From Betaproteobacteria bacterium (GTDB lineage Bacteria > Pseudomonadota > Gammaproteobacteria > Burkholderiales > Burkholderiaceae_C), in the NCBI GenBank assembly GCA_009921265.1, contig RFYV01000003.1:1-64000 (forward strand): a stretch of 64,000 bases of DNA, given 5' to 3'. Under the pieces are notes generated by a model. The model ran no database searches, was not told the DNA's origin, and saw only the letters and a program-made list of their open reading frames with translations. Position 1 is the first letter of the stretch; the number at the start of each line of letters is the position of its first letter. The translations under genes and the position numbers were made by a program. Below, one piece after another: positions 1 through 53,352 of the stretch.

Positions 1-311
1 GCCATTCCGCCATTTGCCATTGCTGCCGCGATAGGTGCAAGGAAGGCGAATGATGAACCTAAATAGCTAGGTACTTTGTTCTTAGTTAGCGTTAAGAAAA
101 CTAGAGTTCCAACGCCAGAGAAAAATAGCGTTGTGCTTGGTGGAAATCCGGTGATGATTGGTACTAAAAATGTTGCGCCGAACATAGCGGCGATATGTTG
201 AACGCCAACGCCAATTGTCAGTGGCCAAATTAGACGTTCTCCTGGCTTAACTACATCGCCGTCAGCAATGCTCTTTCCATTTCCATGAAGCTTCCAAGAT
301 AAAAGCGACAT
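1..311 (-). CDS. Uracil-xanthine permease (NCS2 family), N-terminal part, truncated by window edge
   Basis: Reverse-strand reading from CAT at 309-311 gives [104 protein letters not shown], typical of UraA/uracil permease ([21 protein letters not shown]). Absent from ORF track because it is open at the edge. Confidence 0.8.
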
Positions 312-486
312 TCACTTTCCTTCCCATTGCATATTTATATGGCCATAGACCTCTCTATGACTGGGGAATATTTAGAACGAGGGTATGCGGATACGCCTTA
401 GTAACCCAGTAAATACACGCAAAATTACGGGCTATTTTGGGATGAACTGAGCGTGGTGCCCAAGAATTAAAAGTGAATCTTGGGGA

Positions 487-1572
487 TTAAAGGGTAAATC
501 GTGGGTAATCGTCGGTTACCAAAACTATTGCGTAACCATAGATGCGATTCCAAAATTCAATTGTTCCAAGAACAAAGTTCGCAGTTCCCTCTGGATATTT
601 TCCAGTTGCACTTGTGGTGATCCACGCGAAAAAAGTTAGAACAAATGCAATTGCCACGTAGATAATTCCCACAATATAAAGTGGAATTGCGAAGAGCCAT
701 TTAACTAGAGGTAGAACGCGAGATAGCTTTGCGCCACCTTCTATTTCTGGAAGGTCTACCTTGATATTTGGATTCGCTTCAATTGAAGGATATTCATCTG
801 TAAGCAATAAGGCGTAAGCCGCAATTCGCGCATTTAATTCCAGCATTGATTTATTAAAACTTAGAACATAACTTGGATAAACGCCACGAACCAAGAGTGC
901 ACTGTCTTTTTCTCCCATGGTTTGTTTGATATGGGTGGGCATATAACGAATGGCAAAGCCAACGCGTGGATGGTTGGCCAAATTAGGTTCCGAGCCATGA
1001 AAAATCATGACATGGTGCAGAGACATTTGACCTGGTTGAAGAATGATAGGGACCACTTCTTTGGGATCGACTTTGACAGCAATTTCTTGGCCTCTGGAAA
1101 GCAAATTGTTTTCTGCAAACGTATCAATGTGCTGCACCCTTTGATTTTGAGATCCTGGGACAACATTCATACAACCTGATTCAAGTGTGCTTGGTGTCAG
1201 TGCAATCCATGCTGTAATCACATCAACCGATGATAGGCCCCAGTAGTTGCCATCTTGATGCCATGATACGTATGCCTTGTCACCCGCATCTTTTGCAAAA
1301 AACTGAGATGCCCAACAAAAGATATTGGGACCTAAGACGTCTTCGACTGTATCTAAAACTTTTGGGTGTCTAACGATCGAGTTAATCCAAGGAGAAAGTA
1401 GATGCGGTTTTTGGTTGTAACGGCCCGCAATCTTTCCGCCAATTTTGGTTCTGAATTGATCTAAATGAACGTTGAGATTGCTAATTTCATCTGGCGCAAA
1501 TACATCAATAGGTGAGACATAGCCATCTCGTTGGTATTTTTGAATTTGCTCAGAGGATAAAACCTTTGTCAT
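487..1572 (-). CDS. Chimeric ORF: phytanoyl-CoA dioxygenase (PhyH) N-terminal ~230 aa fused to a DUF4389-like membrane C-terminus
   Basis: N-terminal part has PhyH features (WHQDGNYWG, HHVMIFHGSEPN, RVGFAIRYMPTHIKQTMGEKDSALLVRGV). C-terminal part (YPSYVLSFNKSMLELNARIAAYALLLTDEYPS...FFAWITTSATGKYPEGTANFVLGTIEFWNRIYGYAIVLVTDDYPRF) reads as DUF4389. Confidence 0.7.
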   Translation of the reverse strand: MTKVLSSEQIQKYQRDGYVSPIDVFAPDEISNLNVHLDQFRTKIGGKIAGRYNQKPHLLSPWINSIVRHPKVLDTVEDVLGPNIFCWASQFFAKDAGDKAYVSWHQDGNYWGLSSVDVITAWIALTPSTLESGCMNVVPGSQNQRVQHIDTFAENNLLSRGQEIAVKVDPKEVVPIILQPGQMSLHHVMIFHGSEPNLANHPRVGFAIRYMPTHIKQTMGEKDSALLVRGVYPSYVLSFNKSMLELNARIAAYALLLTDEYPSIEANPNIKVDLPEIEGGAKLSRVLPLVKWLFAIPLYIVGIIYVAIAFVLTFFAWITTSATGKYPEGTANFVLGTIEFWNRIYGYAIVLVTDDYPRFTL

Positions 1573-1679: not shown

Positions 1680-2552
1680 TTGTTCTGCTTTTCGAAATTG
1701 TTATACGATCAAACCTCAATTGATGTAATGTTCTCTTCTATGACGAAAAATAAGTCTAATGTGCATTCCACTCTGACCAAACAATTATCGGGTGCTTTGT
1801 ATGCAGCTCCTGCCCTAGAAAAGGGCTTGGATATTTTGGAGTGCTTGGCGCAGGGTCCTGAGGGTAAAACTTTATTAGAGCTCTCTGAGGCATTAGGAAA
1901 ATCTTCAAGTGAAATTTACCGAATGGTAGAGGTGCTTGCAAGACGCGGTTACATCACGCGACAAGACGATGGTTTTCGATTAAGTTTAAAAATGTTTGAT
2001 TTGGGCAAACAGTTTTTACCATTAAGCGATATCACATCGATTGCCACATTGCATATGCACGAATTGGCTCTGTTAACGAGGCAATCGGTTCACTTGAGCA
2101 TGCACCACGACAAGCGTTTGGTGGTGGTGATATCCGTGCAAACGCCCGAACCTCTGGGCTTTAGTGTTCGACTTGGATCTCATTTTCCCTTTAGAACCGA
2201 TCGCACATCTGCTCGGGTGATTGCTGCATTTCAACCTGCAGAATTACAAAAAAAATGGATTGTTGAGTTGGTTGAAAATGCAAAGCCAACTGTTTTAAAC
2301 CCACGGTTGCTATTAAAAAAATTAAATGAAATACGGTTTAGAGGTTACGAGCAAGTACCCAGCGATACGGTCAATGGCATCACCGATATTGCGTTTCCTA
2401 TCTTTGATGCTTCTCATATGGGGGCAATCGCTTCCATCAATATGCCATATCTGAAACAACGCGATGCTCAAATGACAATTGCGCAATCACGATCGGCACT
2501 CAAAAAAACAGCAGAAACGATTTCAATTTATTTGGGTTCCAATTTGGCGTAG
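1680..2552 (+). CDS. IclR-family transcriptional regulator (start may be at 1741)
   Basis: N-terminal winged HTH (ALEKGLDILECLAQGPEGKTLLELSEALGKSSSEIYRMVEVLARRGYI) and an IclR effector domain; divergent from the PhyH gene. Confidence 0.9.
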   Translation: MFCFSKLLYDQTSIDVMFSSMTKNKSNVHSTLTKQLSGALYAAPALEKGLDILECLAQGPEGKTLLELSEALGKSSSEIYRMVEVLARRGYITRQDDGFRLSLKMFDLGKQFLPLSDITSIATLHMHELALLTRQSVHLSMHHDKRLVVVISVQTPEPLGFSVRLGSHFPFRTDRTSARVIAAFQPAELQKKWIVELVENAKPTVLNPRLLLKKLNEIRFRGYEQVPSDTVNGITDIAFPIFDASHMGAIASINMPYLKQRDAQMTIAQSRSALKKTAETISIYLGSNLA

Positions 2553-2636: not shown

Positions 2637-3029
2637 ATGAAACGCGTCAAAAATAATACTTTCAGCGTACTTTTTTTATTAATGACTTTTTCAACAATGG
2701 TCATGGCAGATGCGTCGCCAGAATCCTTAGGCAAATGTGTGGGCTACATGGTTTATGCCACCTCCATGCAAAAAATGAAGGTTTCTGATTTTTCCAAAAA
2801 ATCACAAAACGTTTTTTCAAAAAATATAGGTAATTTTCAGCGCGACCAAGGTGCAATTACCAAATGCAAACAACATAACGAAACCGAGGCCAAATGCATC
2901 AGCGCCTTACCCACGTCTGCAGACGCTGTATTTTTCAAAAGCGTGATGAATGGCATCAATCAAGGAGGGAAAAATCACGATCCACAAGCCATTATCAAAA
3001 GCACCGACGAGGTTTGTGAAGCCTCTTGA
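2637..3029 (+). CDS. Small secreted hypothetical protein
   Basis: Signal-peptide-like N-terminus (MKRVKNNTFSVLFLLMTFSTMVMADA), four Cys in the mature part; no family recognised. Confidence 0.55.
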   Translation: MKRVKNNTFSVLFLLMTFSTMVMADASPESLGKCVGYMVYATSMQKMKVSDFSKKSQNVFSKNIGNFQRDQGAITKCKQHNETEAKCISALPTSADAVFFKSVMNGINQGGKNHDPQAIIKSTDEVCEAS

Positions 3030-3048
3030 ATATCATAGGAATCTAATC

Positions 3049-4002
3049 ATGAAATTATTTTTGTCTCTCTGTTTATTTGTAATCAGTATTTCTTTGCAAG
3101 CACAAACGTATCCATCAAAGTCCATTCGTATTGTGGTTCCATTTCCACCAGGAGGTTCTGCGGATTTATTGGCGCGTGCTCTGGGCGAAAAACTCACCGC
3201 ATCCATGGGTCAACCTGTCTTGATTGACAACAAACCCGGTGCAGGTGGTATTCCAGGGGCAGAAGCTGTTGCAAAATCTACAGCCGATGGATATACCTTG
3301 TTGTTTGCCAATACCAATATCGCCATCAATCCCAGTTTGTATCCCAAATTGCCTTATGACACGGCAACAACATTTACACCTGTTTTGTTGTTAGCCTTGG
3401 TACCTTCATTGATCATGGTGTCAGAAAAAACACCTGCAAACAATATTCAAGAGTTGATTGCATTGGCCAAAGCAAAACCCGAAACACTCAACTACGCATC
3501 GGCGGGCAGTGGAACTTTTCCACACTTGGCAATCGAGCTTTTTAAAATGCAAGCTGGTATTTCAATCACGCATATTCCATACAAGGGTGCAGCACCTGCA
3601 CTCAATGCCTTGCTCACAGGTGAAGTGCAAGTGCTTTGTAACGATATGTTGACGGGCTCGCAACACGTTAAATCAGGACGCTTGCGTGCATTGGGTTACA
3701 CAGGAAGCACACGTGCGCCAACCTTGCCGCAAATTCCAACCATGGCAGAAGCTGGTGTTAAAGACTATGTGGCTGTGGGTTGGCAAGGCATCATGGTTCC
3801 TACGGGCACACCCAAAGCAATCATTGATCGACTCAATGCAGAATTTAATAAAGCGCTCACAGATCCAACCTTGCGACAAAATTTATCGGCGCAAGGTTTG
3901 GTCATTAGTGGCGGTACTACTCAACAATTTGCAGAATTTATTGCACAAGATACTGAGCGTTGGCGCGCTGTCGTTAAAGCATCGGGTGCAAAACCAGAAT
4001 AA
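3049..4002 (+). CDS. Tripartite tricarboxylate transporter substrate-binding protein (Bug/TctC family)
   Basis: Signal peptide then YPSKSIRIVVPFPPGGSADLLAR...IDNKPGAGGIPGAEAVAKS.ADGYTLL; start moved from 2950 to ATG 3049, directly before the signal peptide. Confidence 0.93.
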   Translation: MKLFLSLCLFVISISLQAQTYPSKSIRIVVPFPPGGSADLLARALGEKLTASMGQPVLIDNKPGAGGIPGAEAVAKSTADGYTLLFANTNIAINPSLYPKLPYDTATTFTPVLLLALVPSLIMVSEKTPANNIQELIALAKAKPETLNYASAGSGTFPHLAIELFKMQAGISITHIPYKGAAPALNALLTGEVQVLCNDMLTGSQHVKSGRLRALGYTGSTRAPTLPQIPTMAEAGVKDYVAVGWQGIMVPTGTPKAIIDRLNAEFNKALTDPTLRQNLSAQGLVISGGTTQQFAEFIAQDTERWRAVVKASGAKPE

Positions 4003-4023
4003 AAATTTCAGTAAAGGACAAAA

Positions 4024-5307
4024 ATGCTGAGTAGAGAAGATAACAATCGTTTAACGCAAGTCGGGCCCGATACACCCTTGGGTCGCATGATGCGACGTTA
4101 TTGGCATCCGATTGCCACATCCGCAGAATTACCCAAGCCCGATTGCAAACCCATGCGAGCCAAATTATTGGGTCAAACCTTTGTGGCTTTCAGAGATACG
4201 AGCGGAAAAGTAGGCGTGATGGATGAGTTGTGCACGCACCGCGGTGCATCCATGGCGTTGGGGCGCGTTGAAGATGGAGGCATTCGTTGTATCTATCACG
4301 GATGGAAATTTTCTGTTGATGGCACGATATTGGATATGCCCAACAATGCAGACTCTACTTTTAAAGATCGATTAAAAGCACCCGCATATCCTGTTGTAGA
4401 AGTGTCGGGTTTGATTTGGACTTATATTGGTGACGCAAACAAAAAACCTCCCTTTAGAAGGTTTGCATACGATGAAGTACCCGATAGCAATCGAATTTTA
4501 TTTAGAGTCAATACCAGTGCTAATTTTTTTCAGATGTGGGAGGGAGGTACCGATTCTTCGCACGTGGGTATCTTGCACAGCAACCTCACGCGACCTGGTT
4601 GGCTCAAAGAAAACCATGGGGAAACTGCATTAGAAGTAAACGATATGGTGAGCGATGCGTGGGACGATATGTCTCCACAACTTGATATCGAAAATACGGC
4701 ATTTGGCTTTCATTACGCCAGCATTCGAAAAATTGGTGGGCCACAAGCCCGAAACAATGTTCGCCTCGTGCCGTTGTTTGAGCCTTATGGACGAGTGATT
4801 CAATTTCCTGATTTTTTTACCACCGTCTATGATGTGCCGATGGATGACGAGAACACGGCCACTTATTTGATTGATGCAAGCTTTTCACGCAAACTCGATT
4901 TGCAAGAAAGACTCAAACGCTCTGGCATGACCGAAGAACGTTTTTACAAAGACAACACCTTTGTCGCCAATTGGGATAACAGCTATTGGCAAGATCGCGA
5001 TGCGATGGAGAAAAGAAAAAATTGGAGTGGCTTTAAAGGCATCACACAAGAAGATGCAGTTATTTCAACGTCAATGGGCCCCATCTACGATCGAACACAA
5101 GAGCATCTGGTTGCGGCAGATGCAGCGGTTGTGCGCTTACGAAAGAGACTCATGGACTCTATCAATCTCAATGAGAAGGGTGAAGATCCGATAGGCCTTC
5201 ATTTGCAAGACATGACCAACGTGATTGGTTTTGATGTGGACATGCCTGATGGAAAAATATGGCGTGAGTACGCGCATCAACAAGGTTTGCACAAGGGTGA
5301 AAAATAA
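4024..5307 (+). CDS. Rieske [2Fe-2S] aromatic ring-hydroxylating oxygenase, large subunit (phthalate/vanillate oxygenase-like)
   Basis: Rieske motif CTHRG...CIYHGWKF; N-terminus LTQVGPDTPLGRMMRRYWHPIA typical of phthalate 4,5-dioxygenase-like oxygenases. Confidence 0.92.
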   Translation: MLSREDNNRLTQVGPDTPLGRMMRRYWHPIATSAELPKPDCKPMRAKLLGQTFVAFRDTSGKVGVMDELCTHRGASMALGRVEDGGIRCIYHGWKFSVDGTILDMPNNADSTFKDRLKAPAYPVVEVSGLIWTYIGDANKKPPFRRFAYDEVPDSNRILFRVNTSANFFQMWEGGTDSSHVGILHSNLTRPGWLKENHGETALEVNDMVSDAWDDMSPQLDIENTAFGFHYASIRKIGGPQARNNVRLVPLFEPYGRVIQFPDFFTTVYDVPMDDENTATYLIDASFSRKLDLQERLKRSGMTEERFYKDNTFVANWDNSYWQDRDAMEKRKNWSGFKGITQEDAVISTSMGPIYDRTQEHLVAADAAVVRLRKRLMDSINLNEKGEDPIGLHLQDMTNVIGFDVDMPDGKIWREYAHQQGLHKGEK

Positions 5308-6308
5308 TGAACAATAAAATGAATGCACGCGTTTTATCGCGCCGCCATTATTTAAAGCGGTCCGTAGCAGCGTCATTGATTGTGTCTGCTCCATTTGCAT
5401 TTGCTGCAGATGACAAGTACCCATCCAAGTCCATCAAGATGTTGGTTGGTTTTCCTCCTGGTGGTGCGATTGATTTAATTTCGCGATCGGTTGCAATTGA
5501 AGCGTCTAAAAAACTGGGACAAACGATCGTTATTGAAAATCGATCAGGCGCCAGTGGCACGATTGCATACAACGCACTCAAAAATTCTCCCTCCGATGGC
5601 TACACCCTTGCGCCTGTCACGATCACCGCATTTCGTGCGCCTGTGATTGAAAACGTCACCTTCGATCCGTTGCAAGATTTTGATTATGTGGCGGGTATCA
5701 CTGATATTCCATTTGGTGTTGTTGTTAAAGAAGATTCACCGTTTAAAACATGGGCTGATCTTTTGGCGTGGGGTCGCGCTAATCCTTCACAAATGATGTA
5801 TGGCGCGGCGGCAGGTTTGGGGAACACATCACATTTGTTTGTTGAAGAAGTCGCAGCAAAAGAAAATCTAAAGTGGACGCCTGTTCCATTTAGAGGAACA
5901 ACCGATTGCATGCAAGCATTACTCAGCAGTCAAATTGTTTTTACAGTTGATACCATTGCGGGCACTTCGGGACTCATCAAGGGCGGAAAGGTTCGTATCT
6001 TGGCCGTTGCAACCGATGCACGCTTACCCAGTTGGCCTCAAATACCCACCATGCGAGAGCTGGGATCTGCCATATCGGTCAATAACCTATGGGGCATTGC
6101 AGGACCCAAAGGCTTGCCCACTTCTGTGTATCAAACCCTAGAGGCTGCATTCAAATTTGCGATGGAGCAACAAAGCGTCATTGCGTTGCTTCAAAGTGTT
6201 GAGCAAAAGTCTTTGTACACGGATGGTAAAACATTTAGAGCGTTTGCAGAGCGTTCGGTTAAAGAGCAAAAAGAGGTACTTACTAAATACGGTTTTGCGA
6301 AAAAATAA
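5307..6308 (+). CDS. Bug/TctC-family tripartite tricarboxylate receptor
   Basis: YPSKSIKMLVGFPPGGAIDLISR, IVIENRSGASGTIA, SDGYTLAPV; start overlaps previous stop (TAATG). Confidence 0.92.
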   Translation: MNNKMNARVLSRRHYLKRSVAASLIVSAPFAFAADDKYPSKSIKMLVGFPPGGAIDLISRSVAIEASKKLGQTIVIENRSGASGTIAYNALKNSPSDGYTLAPVTITAFRAPVIENVTFDPLQDFDYVAGITDIPFGVVVKEDSPFKTWADLLAWGRANPSQMMYGAAAGLGNTSHLFVEEVAAKENLKWTPVPFRGTTDCMQALLSSQIVFTVDTIAGTSGLIKGGKVRILAVATDARLPSWPQIPTMRELGSAISVNNLWGIAGPKGLPTSVYQTLEAAFKFAMEQQSVIALLQSVEQKSLYTDGKTFRAFAERSVKEQKEVLTKYGFAKK

Positions 6309-49087: not shown

Positions 49088-50284
49088 ATGATTCCAATGC
49101 ACAACCGTTTTGTATTCGCAGCATTCGTATTATTTTTAAGTATTTTTTTGCATTCATGCAAAGATGCTGAAAAAGCAATAGCGCAAGCACCTCAACCGAT
49201 TTTAGAAAATAATCGATTGCGATATCCAGCAGGCCATCCACAACTGTTGTCATTCGCTATTATTCAAGCGCAACCCATGGGTATTTCTCACGTGGTTGCG
49301 CCTGCCAGAGTGGTGTGGAATGAAGACCGTACACAACGCGTCATGGCACCCTTTGCAGGTCGCGTGGCGCGCATTGTGGTCGACATGGGACAAGAAGTAA
49401 AACCAGGTACTCTATTGGCAGAAATTGCATCCCCAGAATTTGGTGTTGCACAAGCCGAAACCACGCGCGCACAGGCTGATGTCAATGTAGCGCAAAAAAA
49501 TCTAGAAAGACAAAAAGATTTATTCGAGTTGGGCATCGTTGCCAAAAAAGAATTAGAGCAAGCGCAAGCTGACGCCATCCGAGCCAAAGCAGAACTTGAT
49601 CGTGCCAACGCCAAAACTGCTTTGTATGGCGGTGCAAAAAGTGTTGATCAGCAATTGGCTTTGCGCTCTGAAATGCGTGGTTTGGTGGTCGAGCGAAACA
49701 TCAACCCTGGTCAAGAAGTCAAACCCGAATCAGCGAGTCCTACCAATCCCGCATTATTTTTAATTTCTGATCCCTACGAGATGTGGTTGCAAATCGATGC
49801 ACGCGAAGAGTTCCTCAATGATATAAAGCAAGGTCAGTGGGTTCAATTCAAAGCCAATGGGTTGAGCGATCAAGTTTTTAAAGCCAAAGTCGTGGCGTCA
49901 AGCGACTTCATTGATCCAGTCAGTCGCGTGATCAAAATGCGTGCATTGGTTTCCAATCCGCAACGATTACTAAAAGCCGAAATGTTGGGCTCTATTCAAT
50001 TTGACAGGTCGTCCATTTCGGGTGTGGTGGTGCCCGCCAAAGCCGTGTTTTTAAAAGGTGTGCAGCATTGGGTTTTTGTTGAGACAGCACCCAGTGTTTT
50101 TGAGCCACGAGAAGTGGCGGTGATGCCTCTTAGTCCTCAGCAAGTTGTGATAACAAAAGGTTTGCAACCGGGTCAACCATTCGTAAGCGACAACGTCTTG
50201 CTACTTGCACGCGAATTTAAAATCGCACAAGATAACTTAGAGATGTCTGCATCCCCCGTCTTGGCGCCTGCTCAAAAGCCATGA
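49088..50284 (+). CDS. RND periplasmic adaptor (CzcB-like)
   Basis: MAPFAGRVARIVVDMGQEVKPGTLLAEIASPEFGVAQAE, helical hairpin, VVPAKAVFLKGVQHWVFVE. Confidence 0.9.
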   Translation: MIPMHNRFVFAAFVLFLSIFLHSCKDAEKAIAQAPQPILENNRLRYPAGHPQLLSFAIIQAQPMGISHVVAPARVVWNEDRTQRVMAPFAGRVARIVVDMGQEVKPGTLLAEIASPEFGVAQAETTRAQADVNVAQKNLERQKDLFELGIVAKKELEQAQADAIRAKAELDRANAKTALYGGAKSVDQQLALRSEMRGLVVERNINPGQEVKPESASPTNPALFLISDPYEMWLQIDAREEFLNDIKQGQWVQFKANGLSDQVFKAKVVASSDFIDPVSRVIKMRALVSNPQRLLKAEMLGSIQFDRSSISGVVVPAKAVFLKGVQHWVFVETAPSVFEPREVAVMPLSPQQVVITKGLQPGQPFVSDNVLLLAREFKIAQDNLEMSASPVLAPAQKP

Positions 50285-53200
50285 AAAATTTAATACGTTA
50301 CGCTTTAGATCAATACGTTGTAGTGGCCTTGGCCACATTGCTCTTTGCTTTTGCGGGTGTGATTGCATTCAAAAATTTAAGTGTTGAAGCATTTCCAGAC
50401 GTGACCGATACACAAGTTACCGTTATCTCTTTGTATCCAGGGCGTGCGGCAGAAGAAGTAGAAAAACAAGTCACACTACCGATCGAAGTGGCATTATCAG
50501 GATTGCCCAACTCGATTCGACTTTTTTCTCACACGCAGTTTGGGTTGTCATTCAATGTCATTACTTTCAATGACAATGCCGAAGTCAATTTGGCCAGACA
50601 ACAAGTGAACGAGCGTTTAAGAAGCATTGATTTGCCGCCAGGTGTTGAAGCCAATATTGCACCCAACGCGACGCCAGTGGGTGAAATCATGCGCTATCGA
50701 CTCAGAGGCGATGGTTTTTCAACCACCGATTTGCGCACCCTCGAAGATTGGGTGGTTGAACGAGCCTTGCGTCAAGTCAGTGGTGTTGCCGATGTGGTTG
50801 CCATGGGCGGTTACATCAAGCAATACGAAGTGAGGCCTGATCCTGCCAAATTGCGCGCCTACAAAATCAGCTATCAAAATTTACTCGATGCGTTGGGCAG
50901 AAGTAATTCAAATGCAGGCGGCAGTTATATCACTCAAGGCATTCAACAATACACGATACGCGGCATTGGCTTGCTTCAATCCGTTGATGACATTGGTCGC
51001 ATTGTTTTGTCGTCGCGCAACACCACACCCGTTCTCATTCGTGACGTTGCAGAAGTTCATATCGGCTCGGTCCCACGCTTGGGTACTGTGGGTCAAGATC
51101 AAGACGATGACATCGTCACAGGTATTGTGGTGATGCGTCGTGGAGAAAATCCATCGGTAGTTCTTAAAAACGTCAAAGAAAAAATTGAAGAACTCAATCA
51201 AAAAGGATTACCCAAGGGCGTACAAATCGTTCCCTTTTACGATCGAACATGGTTGATGGCCAAAACGCTTGGTACCGTATTTAGAAATTTAGTCGAAGGC
51301 GCATTGTTGGTCTCATTGGTGTTGTATTTGTTTTTATCCAATGTCCGAGCCAGTTTGTTGGTTGTGTTGGTGATTCCTCTTTCACTCTTGGCAACGTTCT
51401 TAGGCCTCAAGTTCATGGGTGTGCCAGCCAACTTGCTCAGTTTGGGTGCCATGGACTTTGGCATCATCGTCGATGGTGCTGTCATCGTGATTGAAAATAT
51501 CATGCATCGATTGGCCGAGCGCGGCGAAGGCATGAACGAAAAAGAGCGCAAAGACGTGATCGTGTCGGCAGCTAATGAAGTAGGGCGACCTACTTTGTTT
51601 TCCATGCTCATCATCATTGCGGCGCATATTCCGATATTTGCTCTTCAAAGACACGAGGGACGAATTTTTCAACCGATGGCCTTGTCGGTCACTTCTGCTC
51701 TTATTGGTTCATTGATTTTTTCACTCACCTTGGTGCCAATGTTGGCTTACTGGGTACTCAGAAAAAAATTACCTCATCACGACAACAAGTTGGTCACTGC
51801 TGCCAAATCTTTTTATAAACCGATTTTGCTTTGGTCGCTCAATCACAAAAAAAATATCATCATCGGCGCATTGATAGCATTTGCGATATCGATGTTTGCA
51901 GCTTCACGCTTAGGTTCAGAGTTTTTACCCGAACTCAATGAAGGCACCATATGGGTCAATGTTCGATTGCCCTCCAGCGTTTCCAACGATGAGGCCGCCA
52001 GAATTCTAAAAAATGTAAGGCGCGCATTGCTCACAGTGCCCGAGGTGCGAACTGCTGTATCAAAGGCGGGTCAACCCGAAGACGGCACCGATCCAAAAAC
52101 CATCAGCATGGCAGAGGTTTTTGTAGATATCAAACCACAAGATGAATGGCGCTCTGGTCTTACACGCGAACAACTCATTGATCAACTCGATCGTGCGGTT
52201 TCAGCTTTGCCGGGTATACAGCCTACATTTTCACAACCCATTCGAGATAACGTGTTGGAGTCCATTTCACAAATCGATGGACAAATCGTCATCAAAATTT
52301 CTGGTGATGATTTGGCGCAACTCAAAAAAACGGCAGAAGCCATCGAACTTGAAATCAAACAAGTCAAAGGTGTTTTTCGTGCAGAGATCGATCGACTCGG
52401 TGAATTGCCACAGTTATTAATTGAAATTGATCGCGAACGCGCCGCGCGTTTTGGCCTCAACATCAGCGATGTACAAGACGTGATTGAATCTGCACTGGCT
52501 GGCAAAAGTGCAACCAGTTTATGGGAGGGTGAACGCCGCTTTGCAGTTGCTGTTCGACTTTCACCCGACAAAAGACAGTTGGCTGATTTGTCTGCCATCT
52601 CCATTCCCGTAGCAGACGGGGGCTTCACCTCTCTCGGCCAGGTGAGCCAAATTCGCGAAGCCAGTGGAGCCATGAACATTGCACGAGAAGCAGGGCGCAG
52701 AACCATGGCGATTGGTATTTTTATCAAAGACCGCGATATGGGATCGATTGTGGCAGATATGAAAGTGCGTGTTCAACAACGCATACAAATTCCAGCAGGC
52801 TACACACTCACATGGTCGGGTGAATTTGAAAACCAAGAACGTGCCATGCAACGCTTGAGCATTGTGGTCCCTATTTCATTGCTCTTGATTTTTGTATTGC
52901 TATTTGATGCATTCAGCTCATTTAAAACGGCGATGTTGATTTTGCTCAATGTGCCTTTGGCGTTGATTGGTGGCTTCATCGCGCTGTGGATTTTTAATAT
53001 TCCCTTGTCGGTATCAGCTGCCATTGGCTTTATTGCATTGTCGGGGCAGGCCGTGCTTAATGGTGTGGTGATGCTCACCGTTTATCAACAACTGCGGCAG
53101 TCAGGGCAAACCGTATTGGATGCTGTGATCAATGGTTCTGATCAGCGACTGCGAACCGTATTGATGACGGCGATGCTGGCCGCTTTGGGTTTGCTTCCCA

Positions 53201-53352
53201 TGGCTTTGTCTCACGATATTGGTGCTGAGACGCAAAGACCTTTGGCCATCGTTGTGATTGGAGGCCTCTTCACAGCCACTTTGCTCACCTTGGTTGTTTT
53301 GCCCACTTTGTACGTGGCTTGGTTCACTCCCAAAACTGTCACAAAACGCTGA
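50281..53352 (+). CDS. CzcA-type heavy-metal efflux RND pump
   Basis: 1023 aa; VEAFPDVTDTQVTVISLYPGRAAEEVEKQVTLPIE, TM4 motif GAMDFGIIVDGAVIVIENIMHRLAE. Confidence 0.93.
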   Translation: MKNLIRYALDQYVVVALATLLFAFAGVIAFKNLSVEAFPDVTDTQVTVISLYPGRAAEEVEKQVTLPIEVALSGLPNSIRLFSHTQFGLSFNVITFNDNAEVNLARQQVNERLRSIDLPPGVEANIAPNATPVGEIMRYRLRGDGFSTTDLRTLEDWVVERALRQVSGVADVVAMGGYIKQYEVRPDPAKLRAYKISYQNLLDALGRSNSNAGGSYITQGIQQYTIRGIGLLQSVDDIGRIVLSSRNTTPVLIRDVAEVHIGSVPRLGTVGQDQDDDIVTGIVVMRRGENPSVVLKNVKEKIEELNQKGLPKGVQIVPFYDRTWLMAKTLGTVFRNLVEGALLVSLVLYLFLSNVRASLLVVLVIPLSLLATFLGLKFMGVPANLLSLGAMDFGIIVDGAVIVIENIMHRLAERGEGMNEKERKDVIVSAANEVGRPTLFSMLIIIAAHIPIFALQRHEGRIFQPMALSVTSALIGSLIFSLTLVPMLAYWVLRKKLPHHDNKLVTAAKSFYKPILLWSLNHKKNIIIGALIAFAISMFAASRLGSEFLPELNEGTIWVNVRLPSSVSNDEAARILKNVRRALLTVPEVRTAVSKAGQPEDGTDPKTISMAEVFVDIKPQDEWRSGLTREQLIDQLDRAVSALPGIQPTFSQPIRDNVLESISQIDGQIVIKISGDDLAQLKKTAEAIELEIKQVKGVFRAEIDRLGELPQLLIEIDRERAARFGLNISDVQDVIESALAGKSATSLWEGERRFAVAVRLSPDKRQLADLSAISIPVADGGFTSLGQVSQIREASGAMNIAREAGRRTMAIGIFIKDRDMGSIVADMKVRVQQRIQIPAGYTLTWSGEFENQERAMQRLSIVVPISLLLIFVLLFDAFSSFKTAMLILLNVPLALIGGFIALWIFNIPLSVSAAIGFIALSGQAVLNGVVMLTVYQQLRQSGQTVLDAVINGSDQRLRTVLMTAMLAALGLLPMALSHDIGAETQRPLAIVVIGGLFTATLLTLVVLPTLYVAWFTPKTVTKR

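Follow-up and report, generated by a model that had tools for sequence, protein, structure and literature searches.

It has been documented that metagenome assemblers can fail by building chimeric contigs through k-mers that genomes have in common (PMC7299287). The 64,000-nucleotide stretch of DNA analysed here (the window, bases 1-64000 of the 96,918 bp contig C113) was similar to these contigs, in that two unrelated genomes appeared to be connected by a short shared word and the join was found in no relative of either parent, but it differed from them in that the shared word stood in frame in both genes and the product resembled a real fusion protein. Each side of the join also had a close counterpart. 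With the PhyH gene (PF05721) and IclR gene of a genome of the same family (G306, locus L018), the window shared residues 1-231 of its fusion frame and the divergent IclR gene, whereas the C-terminal ~45 residues of PhyH were replaced by foreign sequence. With the DUF4389 (PF14333)-permease loci of freshwater actinobacterial MAGs (L002-L014), it shared residues 232-361, the gene order, and the permease neighbour, but the N-terminal ~70 residues of DUF4389 were missing and the permease was cut at the contig end. The PhyH-DUF4389 fusion was almost certainly a misjoin of metagenome assembly at the end of the contig, with the connection probably made by the assembler, or by a chimeric read, and not by the cell.

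Translation of the window revealed one open frame on the minus strand (487..1572) with a product of 361 aa. In the Pfam search, residues 13-204 matched PhyH (E 3.6e-27) and residues 290-358 matched DUF4389 (E 8e-11; 42.1 bits against a gathering cut-off of 25), the latter match taking in profile positions 6-73 of 76, so both domains scored over their cut-offs within the single frame. Residues 1-231 were PhyH, and residues 232-361 corresponded to a DUF4389 protein without its N-terminal third. The Pfam matches and the sharp switch between relatives confirmed the preliminary description, in which the frame was read as PhyH joined to a DUF4389-like tail. In the translation of the PhyH part, the Fe(II)-binding HxD...H residues of the family could be assigned to the motif WHQDGNYW and, for the distal H, to SLHHVMIFHGSEPN. 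The features on both sides of the join are listed in Table 1.

Table 1. Features at the left end of the window
Feature	Coordinates	Strand	Basis
Uracil/xanthine-type permease, N-terminal 103 aa, cut by the contig end; actinobacterial	3..311	-	Pfam PF00860; 94% identity to the L008 permease
Actinobacterial intergenic stretch	312..486	.	Within the collinear DNA alignment of 1-900 to L008, L007, and others
DUF4389 gene, C-terminal 130 codons and stop; N-terminal ~70 aa absent	487..879	-	Pfam PF14333; 82-92% identity, 13 actinobacterial loci
Junction zone encoding ALLVRGV, fits both parents	880..901	-	Drop in actinobacterial identity; xLVRG[V] in PhyH relatives
First 231 codons of a PhyH-type dioxygenase gene; ~45 codons absent at the C-terminal end	880..1572	-	Pfam PF05721; 74% identity to the 277-aa PhyH in G306
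IclR-type regulator; divergently oriented native neighbour of PhyH	1680..2552	+	Pfam IclR_C E 2.7e-21, HTH_IclR E 2.5e-13; same pair in G306/L018

The 130-residue tail alone was used as a query against one genome per species. The results showed 15 matching loci, all titled as actinobacterial MAGs, and 13 of them were 82-92% identical across all 130 residues. When the DNA of the window was aligned with these loci, the alignment started at base 1 and stopped at 891-901 in twelve of them, and the best match (L008) was 82.6% identical over 1-900 with the intergenic stretch included. Small freshwater actinobacterial MAGs were thus collinear with bases 1-~900 (72-83% DNA identity) and kept the order DUF4389-permease. 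In L008, a 444-aa frame, which by inspection only read as argininosuccinate synthase, was followed by DUF4389 (200 aa, 3990..4592) and then by the permease (420 aa); DUF4389 in this MAG was a complete, separate gene of ~200 aa. The DUF4389 relatives had their own N-terminus and an upstream sequence unlike that of the window. The frame at the left edge of the window matched Xan_ur_permease with an E value of 3.2e-12, and its identity to L008 was found over residues 1-103 of the 420-aa protein. Within the genus of L008, 23 of the 27 genomes matched the window, and in 13 of these the match spanned essentially the whole of 1-~900 (72-83% identity); a near-identical actinobacterial parent was sought in these 27 genomes and not found, the best being at 83%. 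The matching genomes of this genus were 0.8-1.5 Mb, sizes that presumably fit freshwater Nanopelagicales (acI). The earlier proposals that bases 1-~880 were foreign and actinobacterial, and that the gene at 1-311 was an actinobacterial-looking uracil permease, were borne out by the 83% DNA identity over 1-900 to a MAG with the same gene order and by the identity of the permeases, respectively. As a separate observation, two of the loci (L003, CAMCPZ010000082.1, and L014, CAMAYZ010000012.1) were titled Bifidobacterium breve and carried the DUF4389-permease locus of the freshwater actinobacterial MAGs. Their DNA identity to 1-900 of the window was 74 and 76%, so the organism names in these titles look wrong.

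For the other side, residues 1-231 of PhyH were used as a query against 401 genomes of the window's family, and 15 of these had matches at E < 1e-40. The best match outside the window's own genome was that of G306, which belonged to another genus of the family; its PhyH was intact, lacked DUF4389, and ended in DTYHHFEHEREPDEEF...KKRKD. An IclR gene stood divergently beside it, as at 880-2552 of the window, and the DNA similarity between the window and this locus extended into parts of the IclR gene. A DNA search for the PhyH gene within the window's genus, covering 60 other genomes, found none, so the best comparison for PhyH was G306 from the same family. Further along the window, 49.1-53.4 kb was 89% identical over 4.3 kb to G020, a genome of the window's own genus. 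The PhyH/IclR pair in G306 and this long match indicated that the right side was native to the genome bin, in agreement with the Burkholderiales-type content from ~900 described earlier. GC was alike on both sides of the join (0.40-0.45), and composition was therefore uninformative for origin.

To locate the join, agreement with eleven actinobacterial loci was averaged in 9-base steps. The mean agreement was 5.4-8.8 of 9 at 790-888 and 6.5 at 889-897, dropped to 2.7 at 898-906, and was 1.1-3.2 past 898. The PhyH relatives tracked the window up to residue 230 or 231 (the codon ending at 880) in nearly all cases and diverged at 879, where the closest of them (those read on the plus strand) continued D-T-Y, D-D-F, or D-E-F. 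The crossover of identity was thus within 880-901, which corresponded to residues 225-231 (ALLVRGV). The switch placed at 877-890 in the preliminary description was real and sharp, but by the stepwise agreement and the divergence of PhyH the breakpoint lay within 880..~901. At the crossover, the nearest DUF4389 proteins all had ALLVRGV or TLLVRGV, and the PhyH relatives had AMLVRGV, ALLVRG, ATLVRGV, and the like (xLVRG[V]). The microhomology GGCGTTTATCC proposed earlier was not upheld because the PhyH relatives did not continue with TAT CC; the shared stretch was instead the one encoding ALLVRGV. Each codon of the window in 880-901 was found in at least one actinobacterial relative, and G306 used other synonymous codons. 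At the motif level the word was thus shared by the relatives on the two sides. The search gave no exact match to either parent, and the ~21 bases may have been identical in both parents, the PhyH side included. A nearly shared ALLVRGV puts similar codons in one frame in both genes, which accounted for both the site of the join and its in-frame state.

Since base 1 of the window was base 1 of the contig, the left edge of the window was a physical contig end, and the permease was cut there. The draft genome consisted of 267 contigs and was 95.8% complete and 2.75% contaminated. When the 420-aa permease was used as a query against this genome, only residues 1-103 matched, and the rest of the permease was absent. 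The missing C-terminus of PhyH was also sought in the genome and nothing was found, whereas the same query did find G306; this absence is expected if the contig breaks inside PhyH. The tail was present as a single copy in its own genome and was found in none of the 400 other genomes of the family. The ORFs of L018 (PhyH) and L008 (DUF4389) were separate, unfused genes. A relative of the fusion was not found in viral contigs, and the plasmid records had no single place covering 80% of the fusion query, with the listed matches ending at residue 256 or before. The occurrence of the same fusion in independent genomes, raised in the preliminary description, was therefore not observed in the 400 family genomes or in the viral and plasmid scans.

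The preliminary description had left the choice between a misjoin and a real recombination edge. The misjoin was strongly favoured, because the segment was terminal in the contig, the break fell at a common short motif, both genes were truncated, and the join was unique. In the proposed sequence of events, the true contig would stop inside a Burkholderiaceae-family PhyH gene. A bridge of ~21 bases, encoding ALLVRGV in both genes, would lead the assembler out of PhyH and into DUF4389 of a freshwater actinobacterium that co-occurred, and the assembler would then extend for ~880 bases until the actinobacterial path ended. Recombination, by which actinobacterial DNA would have entered the Burkholderiaceae chromosome within PhyH very recently and in this strain specifically to create a fusion gene, was judged improbable. 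The frame was open across the join, and freshwater habitats are assumed to be common to both groups, but the segment was at the contig end with its second boundary out of view, it was unique among the 401 family genomes, and both the PhyH and DUF4389 genes were truncated. Nothing was found in favour of recombination beyond the open frame, and this was already explained by the shared in-frame motif without selection. A conserved two-domain PhyH-DUF4389 protein with its own function had a negligible likelihood, although both domains passed the Pfam cut-offs in one frame, since the PhyH relatives matched only to about residue 230-231, the DUF4389 relatives started and were flanked differently, the viral and plasmid searches gave no such protein, and the architecture was contradicted by the relatives examined.

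With the misjoin as the explanation, the 361-aa product was very probably not real, and no grounds were seen for assigning it a function. A short motif in the same frame in two unrelated genes can produce a plausible in-frame fusion protein at a contig end, and neither a new domain architecture nor gene transfer should be concluded from such frames. In any further use of the contig, bases 1-~900 should be regarded as foreign.

Several other features of the right side were observed. PhyH (880-1572), with its 74% relative and the same IclR neighbour in G306, appeared to be an accessory gene of patchy distribution. At 2950-6308, two proteins that, by inspection only, resembled tripartite-tricarboxylate (Bug/TctC-type) binding proteins stood around a Rieske oxygenase-like protein (4024..5307), for which the NCBIfam matches were only weak. 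These genes adjoined IclR and PhyH and possibly formed a small catabolic cluster. A CusA/CzcA-type heavy-metal RND efflux pump (NCBIfam TIGR00914, 1026 bits) was found at 50281-53352, and many genomes of the genus matched this region at DNA identities of 69-89%.
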